The notes beneath the pieces were generated by a model that saw only the letters and a list, made by a program, of their open reading frames with translations, was not told the DNA's origin and made no database searches. From assembly GCF_006352065.1 (NCBI RefSeq), contig NZ_CP040915.1:2542001-2606000 (forward strand): DNA of 64,000 nt. The letters run 5' to 3'. Shown one piece after another: positions 62,575 through 64,000 of this stretch (within the stretch, counting starts at the first letter, position 1; the number at the start of each line of letters is the position of its first letter). Made by a program: the position numbers and the translations under genes. This DNA is from Georgenia yuyongxinii (GTDB lineage Bacteria; Actinomycetota; Actinomycetes; Actinomycetales; Actinomycetaceae).

Positions 62575-62844
62575 CCGTCGGGCATCACAGGGCGAGCGGG
62601 TCGGCGCCTGCGGGCCCTCCAGCCACGTGGTGACGACGGTGTCGCTGGCGTGGATGTTGGTCGACTCGAACACCCCGCCCTCCAGCACCGAGGACTTGTG
62701 CGGTGTATAGGCGGGTACCACCAGCACCTCTCCCGCGGTCCCGACGAGCTCGCGTTCCCCCACCGTGAACCGTGCGCGGCCGCGGTGGATGACGAAGGTC
62801 TCGGAGCAAGGGTGCTCGTGCAGGTACGGCCGGCACCGGGCGGC
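62575..62844 (-). pseudogene. 5'-truncated cupin gene remnant
   Basis: The minus-strand frame contains PYLHEHPCSETFVIHRGRAR, then FTVGERELVGTAGEVLVVP and AYTPHKSSV, a recognisable cupin core. It has no start: the frame begins directly after the TAG of the CGNR gene, in the same reading frame. After about 62600 it becomes a low-complexity Arg-rich frame that runs into the trxA terminator. It is a remnant of a larger cupin protein. Confidence 0.7.
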
Positions 62845-63441
62845 CTAGTACTTCTCCCCGGCCTCTCTATCCTGCTGCTTCTCGTTCTCGTCGTGCTTCG
62901 TCTTGTGCTCGTCCTGCTTCTTCTCGGCGGCCCGACGTCGGTACGCCGCCACCTTGTGGCGGTTGAGGCACACCGCGCCGCAGTACTTGCGCTGCCCCGC
63001 CGCCGAGCTGTCGGCAAAGGCGTCGGCACAGCGGATGCCCTCGCACAGTCCCAGACGGTCGGCGCCGCGCGCATGCACCCAGTCCAGCAGCGCGATGGCC
63101 AGTGCCGCGCGTAGGGGATCGCCGTCGTCGCCCACCTCCCACATCACCGCCCCGTCCGGGCCCAGCCGCGGCGTGGGCCGGGCCGCGGCGAGGAGCGCGT
63201 TGAGGGCGGGGGCGACGTCGTGGCCGGTGTGTGCGTCGAGGAAGACCTGGTACGCGTCCTCGGCGGCGGCGTGCAGCGCGCCCTCGGAGCTGGCCGGAAA
63301 TGTGGACGCGAGGTCGCCCAGCACCGCACCCAGGTCGCGGTACCCCTTCGACTCGTCCTGCGCAGCCGCACGTGGGCGGGGCGCGTAGTGGTTGACCAGG
63401 TCGAGCACCTGGTCCATCTCCATCTGTGGCACCGCACTCAC
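62845..63441 (-). CDS. CGNR-type zinc-finger transcriptional regulator (ABATE domain)
   Basis: A 198-residue regulator. The N-terminal ABATE domain (about 1-130) ends in the zinc-finger segment CEGIRCADAFADSS, then KYCGAVCLNRHKVAAYRRR, with four cysteines and CLNR in place of the family's CGNR. A very charged, Lys/Glu-rich tail follows. The GTG at 63441 lies six bases after the -10 TACACT, so the ATG at 63471 is not used. Strong palindromes upstream suggest autoregulation. Confidence 0.82.
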   Translation of the reverse strand: MSAVPQMEMDQVLDLVNHYAPRPRAAAQDESKGYRDLGAVLGDLASTFPASSEGALHAAAEDAYQVFLDAHTGHDVAPALNALLAAARPTPRLGPDGAVMWEVGDDGDPLRAALAIALLDWVHARGADRLGLCEGIRCADAFADSSAAGQRKYCGAVCLNRHKVAAYRRRAAEKKQDEHKTKHDENEKQQDREAGEKY

Positions 63442-63447
63442 GGAATA

Positions 63448-63517
63448 AGTGTAACCCCACGAGGGTTCCATCGAGGTTACGATCGTGGTAACCTGACGAA
63501 CACAACCAACAGGTTAC
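63448..63517. promoter_or_regulatory. Paired GTAACC-N18-GGTTAC palindromes and leaderless promoter
   Basis: Two dyads of identical size, GTAACC at 63451 with GGTTAC at 63475 and GTAACC at 63488 with GGTTAC at 63512, are spaced 37 bp apart. The second has 8-bp arms (GTAACCTG and CAGGTTAC). The first overlaps the -10 TACACT (63453-63448) of the CGNR gene. The symmetric pair is a strong candidate for a multi-site operator. Confidence 0.8.
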
Positions 63518-63652
63518 AAGCACCGTTGACACTGAGGTCCGGGAGCTCATTCCCCGCACTGGGCCGACATGCCGGCGGACTACGCGGCAGCAGCCGCCAC
63601 GAGACAACTACCCAGAACCACCCACCACATGAGGACCGGGAGAAGGATCTCC

Positions 63653-63856
63653 ATGCTGTACCTGTCAGACGCCAACCTCATGCTCTTCCAGGTGCGCCAC
63701 GACGACCTCGTCGCCGAGGCGGAGCGGCACCACCGACGACAGGAGCTGCGGCAACACGATCGGTCCGGTCGCCGTCCCTCGGGCCTCGGTGGGATCCGGT
63801 ACGCACTTCGCCAGGTTCGCCGTGCCTCGTTCGGCTCCACGATCCGACCCGCCTGA
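63653..63856 (+). CDS. Small conserved actinobacterial protein, hypothetical
   Basis: A 67-residue protein (MLYLSDANLMLFQVRHDDLV, then a basic Arg/His-rich end). Similar short proteins with a pattern of SDA-LM--Q-RH-DLV occur in other actinobacteria, though no function is assigned. An AGAAGGA ribosome site lies seven bases before the ATG. It is divergent from the CGNR gene and may share its operators. Confidence 0.65.
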   Translation: MLYLSDANLMLFQVRHDDLVAEAERHHRRQELRQHDRSGRRPSGLGGIRYALRQVRRASFGSTIRPA

Positions 63857-63910
63857 AGAGATCAGCGTGTCCACGTCGGATGCCCTCGCCCGCCTGAGGA
63901 GGCCTCCGAC

Positions 63911-63928
63911 GTCGGGGTTCGCCCCGAC
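63911..63928 (+). terminator. UUCG-capped hairpin after the small gene
   Basis: GTCGGGG (63911-63917) pairs with CCCCGAC (63922-63928) around a TTCG loop, an especially stable tetraloop. It likely ends the small-gene transcript. No poly-U follows. No gene start is recognised in the final 70 bp. Confidence 0.55.
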
Positions 63929-64000
63929 CCGTCGGCCCGCCCCTCTCAGGGGAAGCGAGGACCGGCTCAGGGGCCAACCGGGGCGAACCCCCATATCCGG

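Follow-up and report, generated by a model that had tools for sequence, protein, structure and literature searches.

The CGNR/ABATE proteins were proposed to be DNA-binding regulators from a 2009 crystal structure (PMC2954205). The sole solved ABATE/CGNR relative (PF07336 plus PF11706), Jann_2411 (PDB 3h0n), is a dimer, its treble-clef zinc finger is proposed to bind DNA and its ABATE domain is proposed to bind a ligand (PMC2954205). A search of open-access papers found no operator or binding site for any member of the CGNR family. In the TetR/TetA layout, an autoregulating dimeric repressor controls a divergent gene.

The window, that is, the whole 64,000-nucleotide stretch of Georgenia DNA that was analysed, encodes a protein with the same two domains as Jann_2411. 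Whereas the passages of the structure paper considered here give no operator or target gene for Jann_2411, a specific site, a target and a span that many members of the family share can now be proposed. With a probability of about 0.83, two inverted repeats beside the CGNR gene are the operator of the CGNR protein, a dimer of which would repress both its own gene and a divergent small gene. This exact putative operator, with its two-gene predicted regulon, would be the first predicted DNA target for an almost unstudied regulator family. The elements concerned are the following:

62845..63441, minus strand: CGNR regulator gene (ABATE plus CGNR zinc finger), 198 aa, predicted leaderless GTG start
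62932..63057, minus strand: CGNR zinc finger (here C-LNR), from the PF11706 match G000:C1:2604932-2605057 converted to window coordinates
63448..63453, minus strand: predicted CGNR -10 TACACT, overlapping three outer-arm bases of dyad 1
63451..63480, no strand assigned: dyad 1, GTAACC-N18-GGTTAC, exact match, proposed CGNR dimer site at the CGNR promoter
63466..63471, plus strand: predicted small-gene -35 TTCCAT (weak), inside the gap of dyad 1
63475..63493, no strand assigned: inner dyad GGTTAC-N7-GTAACC, made up of the second arm of dyad 1 and the first arm of dyad 2
63488..63517, no strand assigned: dyad 2, GTAACC-N18-GGTTAC, exact match, proposed CGNR dimer site at the small-gene promoter
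63489..63494, plus strand: predicted small-gene -10 TAACCT, overlapping the first arm of dyad 2
63653..63856, plus strand: divergent small gene of 67 aa, predicted as the sole target besides the CGNR gene

The CGNR zinc finger scores 43.1 bits against PF11706 (cut-off 24) and the ABATE domain, marginally, 26.1 bits against PF07336 (cut-off 24.4), while a phmmer comparison with 3h0n covers query residues 66-172 at an E value of 2.2e-9. Four cysteines are invariant in the alignment of the six CGNR orthologues described below, where the signature reads CLNR or CGNR. All six share a TANNNT hexamer that is overlapped by the outer arm of a dyad and followed after 6 nt (7 in genome G108) by the start codon, and because of this distance of 6-7 nt from the -10 the CGNR mRNA is predicted to be leaderless. 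The preliminary description had placed the dyads over a leaderless CGNR promoter, which this shared geometry of arm, -10 and start codon bears out at the level of prediction; no clear -35 was seen at the CGNR promoter. GTG at 63441 is the best-fitting start, and the longer ATG open reading frame from 63471 is unlikely. Two further features of the gene are that the window protein ends, at its C-terminus, in a charged stretch of some 20-25 residues that the orthologues lack, and that its stop codon is directly followed by a cupin gene remnant (62585-62836, minus strand), which lacks roughly the first 40 codons of the cupin genes found near the CGNR orthologues of G108 (L031 10655-11017) and G189 (L029 6748-7128).

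Both dyads are exact, with 18-bp gaps and a 37-bp period, as had been described from the letters of the window; of the region first delimited, 63448-63517, the left edge lies 3 bp too early, 63448-63453 being the CGNR -10 hexamer. Dyads 1 and 2 are the only exact matches to GTAACC-N18-GGTTAC in the 4.17-Mb Georgenia genome, where about 0.07 would be expected by chance from the base composition of the window; a search of the whole genome allowing one mismatch gave no extra copies, and dinucleotide shuffles of the window gave no matches to the pattern. Duplication could yield two copies of equal geometry, and the dyads might accordingly be read as a recombination or attachment scar, as a repeat or as a product of chance. 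The low expected number and the lack of exact copies elsewhere in the genome speak against this, as does the fact that the gap sequences of the two dyads differ.

Comparison with other genomes bears further on this point. The three-arm pattern GTAACC-N18-GGTTAC-N7-GTAACC occurs in 5 of 213 genomes of the same family, namely the window's own (G000), three of the same genus (G102, G106, G107) and one of another genus (G189), and each of the five matches continues with N18-GGTTAC to form a tetrad of arms; among 396 genomes sampled from the order, the window's own genome was the sole match. Across the five tetrads all 24 arm positions are invariant and all spacings unchanged, including the 7-bp inner gap, while only 6 of 43 spacer positions are invariant, and the window and G189 tetrads agree at just 14 of 43 spacer positions. 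Fixed arms with drifting spacers are the pattern that would be left by protein contacts kept while the intervening DNA changes. A scar, repeat or chance origin, to which we assign next to no probability, is refuted by this conservation, the geometry being kept across genera despite the divergence of the spacers.

Orthologues of the CGNR protein (58-62% identity) were found in six of ten closely examined genomes, G000, G102, G106, G107, G108 and G189; the other four, of the same genus, hold only a distant CGNR paralogue. Each of the six genomes with the orthologue has exact N18 dyads, and 16 tested genomes that lack it, four of them from the same genus, have none (Fisher test 1.3e-5 for the full 22 genomes and 0.008 for the genus; the orthologue sample is small, n=6, from two related genera). 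All exact dyads in the six genomes are placed either at the start of the CGNR gene or before the small gene, which lends comparative support to the earlier suggestion of a putative CGNR-protein site. An N18 dyad stands at the CGNR start in all six orthologous loci, in G108 with a single mismatch (GTAACC-N18-AGTTAC), and a site of the dyad 2 type is kept before the small gene in 6/6. The two genes are separated in G106 (by about 4.3 kb) and G108 (by about 1.6 kb), each retaining its own dyad, with a single one at the CGNR gene; G102 and G107 have 88 bp between the tetrad and the CGNR dyad, and the arrangement therefore varies.

Many regulators characteristically use gapped inverted repeats, so that an unlinked protein, for example of the TetR or GntR type, might bind the dyads, with the CGNR gene and the small gene merely its targets. 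We consider this improbable in view of the joint presence of dyads and CGNR orthologue in six genomes and their joint absence from 16, and inspection of the six loci showed no further DNA-binding gene that all of them have close to the sites; unrelated CGNR genes, moreover, have similar dyads at their own promoters (see below). A different reading accepts the CGNR protein as the binder and takes the inner 19-bp dyad GGTTAC-N7-GTAACC as the functional unit, with the outer arms as accessory half-sites. Its fixed 7-bp gap in five of five tetrads fits this reading, but the CGNR promoters of G102, G106, G107 and G108 each have a lone N18 dyad without an N7 partner, as does the small gene of G108, and the family-wide enrichment is highest at a span of 29 bp; it seems to us about as doubtful as an unlinked regulator.

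The divergent small gene, named in the preliminary description, is real, with homologues in five other loci. Its predicted -10, TAACCT, is identical in all five tetrads, 17 bp from a -35 that lies inside dyad 1. Four tetrads have TTGNCA as this -35, and the window has TTCCAT, a weaker box; the -10 itself falls within the dyads in the five tetrads and in G108. The dyads thus cover the predicted small-gene promoter in addition to that of the CGNR gene, and since they overlap predicted promoter elements of both genes, a protein on them would block both promoters.

On the preferred reading, in which the CGNR protein binds the 30-bp dyads, one CGNR dimer would span one dyad, its two zinc fingers placed on GTAACC and GGTTAC, respectively, with 24 bp from arm centre to arm centre; the window would accommodate two dimers at a distance of 37 bp. 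The dimer at dyad 1 would cover the -10 of its own leaderless promoter, and dimers at dyads 1 and 2 together would cover both promoter boxes (-35 and -10) of the small gene; the outcome would be autorepression together with repression of the small gene, probably relieved by a ligand of the ABATE domain. What the sequence shows is the dyads, how they are conserved, that they co-occur with the CGNR gene and that they overlap predicted promoter elements, and from these we infer binding, dimer stoichiometry, repression and signal; the transcription start points of both genes are predictions. Repression rather than activation is read from the position of the sites by itself. The double site is always placed toward the small gene in the intergenic region, which would also suit a CGNR protein that activates the small gene while repressing itself. 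This is unlikely, if somewhat less so than the two alternatives above, given that dyad 2 overlaps the small-gene -10 and continues beyond the expected start point, as sites for repression typically do. Like TetR/TetA, the locus would thus have a regulator and its target in divergent orientation, inverted-repeat sites over both promoters and, as predicted here, autorepression. It differs from that system in the unrelated fold of the regulator, in arms 18 bp apart within a 30-bp site, in two dyads in series, in the predicted leaderless regulator mRNA and in a target that is a small protein.

Neither Pfam nor NCBIfam gave a match for the 67-aa small protein. Where a genome lacks this CGNR, its small-gene paralogues adjoin another regulator, as do second copies in G106 and G108; we take this regulator from its appearance to be of the GATase1/AraC type. 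Six Georgenia loci (L183-L186, L188, L189) have small-protein paralogues divergent from such a GATase1/AraC-like regulator, which suggests a recurrent pairing of the small-protein family with divergent regulators. The GTAACC arm is absent from the one paralogue upstream region inspected, and no exact dyads occur in the genomes without this CGNR. In three of the six loci the small gene is followed downstream by a lipoprotein gene (DUF2807-like by eye; L026 6075-6785, L028 7553-8314, L030 11108-11830), and the window has a perfect 13-nt inverted repeat, GGGGTTCGCCCCG / CGGGGCGAACCCC, at 63914-63926 and 63979-63991 with 52 nt between the arms. An RNA family search of 62800-64000 found none. Folding of the window's small-gene leader is no stronger than that of shuffled sequence (z -0.9); among the leaders, only that of G107 stands apart (z -2.8).

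Beyond the orthologues, the upstream regions of 150 further CGNR (PF11706) genes were collected, nearly all from a phylum-wide search; after redundancy had been removed (protein identity <70%), and without the orthologues of the window protein, 112 genes remained. Dyads were counted under a strict criterion, a perfect inverted repeat of 6 bp, close to where the promoter is expected, whose arms each contain three or more A/T, the A/T filter having been chosen after the first 32 genes had been seen. At spans of 27, 28, 29, 30 and 31 bp, respectively, 10, 9, 22, 12 and 13 of the 112 genes have a dyad, compared with about 1.5 per span (maximum 7) in dinucleotide shuffles and 0 in coding sequence. 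At least one dyad of 27-31 bp is found at 44 of 112 CGNR promoters, against a mean of about 6 (maximum 12) in shuffles, 0 of 112 in coding sequence and 12 of 109 far-upstream segments (Fisher 9e-7); the promoters of other genes in the window have such dyads in 4 of 40 cases. Many unrelated CGNR genes thus have dyads of similar span at their own promoters, which adds to the case for a putative CGNR site. Spans of 17-26 and 32-36 bp also exceed the shuffles, though less, for which overlapping half-sites are likely one cause, and if each gene is represented by no more than its best dyad of any span, the peak becomes broader and weaker. About 60% of the CGNR genes lack a dyad that satisfies the strict criterion. 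A second set, of 27 genes that include near-duplicates, gave 13 with a dyad versus 3 far upstream (p 0.003) and 5 in coding sequence, several of the 28-bp matches extending into the coding start; the strict dyad is absent from about half of this set and from a close CGNR relative (L193).

The sequence of the arms appears to follow, moderately, the subtype of the zinc finger:

CGNRxxVAAYR-type fingers: arms GTCATGA, GTCAGGA or GTCACGA
CG[SA]RAKMR-type fingers: arm GTTACC
CSSR/CATR-type fingers: arm GTAAT
CGNRTKT-type fingers: arm ACACCAGT
CLNRHKVAEHR-type finger (window): arm GTAACC

When proteins are clustered at 70%, the more alike two fingers are, the more alike their half-sites tend to be (r 0.14, 1 of 5000 permutations), and at 50% clustering the correlation is not significant (580 of 5000 permutations). 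The correlation hints at a recognition code linking finger and arm and does not amount to proof, because common descent adds to it. We lean slightly towards the wider view that CGNR family members are dimeric single-zinc-finger repressors, each using a long-gapped operator of about 27-31 bp with 6-8-bp arms, and that a readable code relates subtype to arm (GTAACC, GTTACC, GTCATGA, GTAAT, ACACCAGT, GTGACTG). If true, such a code would make the operators and regulons of many CGNR family members predictable from sequence. With sites of similar span across the family accompanying the predicted operator, binding, signal and recognition code become directly testable.

A second CGNR paralogue occurs in the genus. 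In the window's genome (L003, G000:C1:3043885) its promoter dyad is imperfect, and in three loci of relatives within the genus (L021, L022, L023) its promoter has near-perfect dyads such as TGTCATGAGT-N12-ACTCATGACA.
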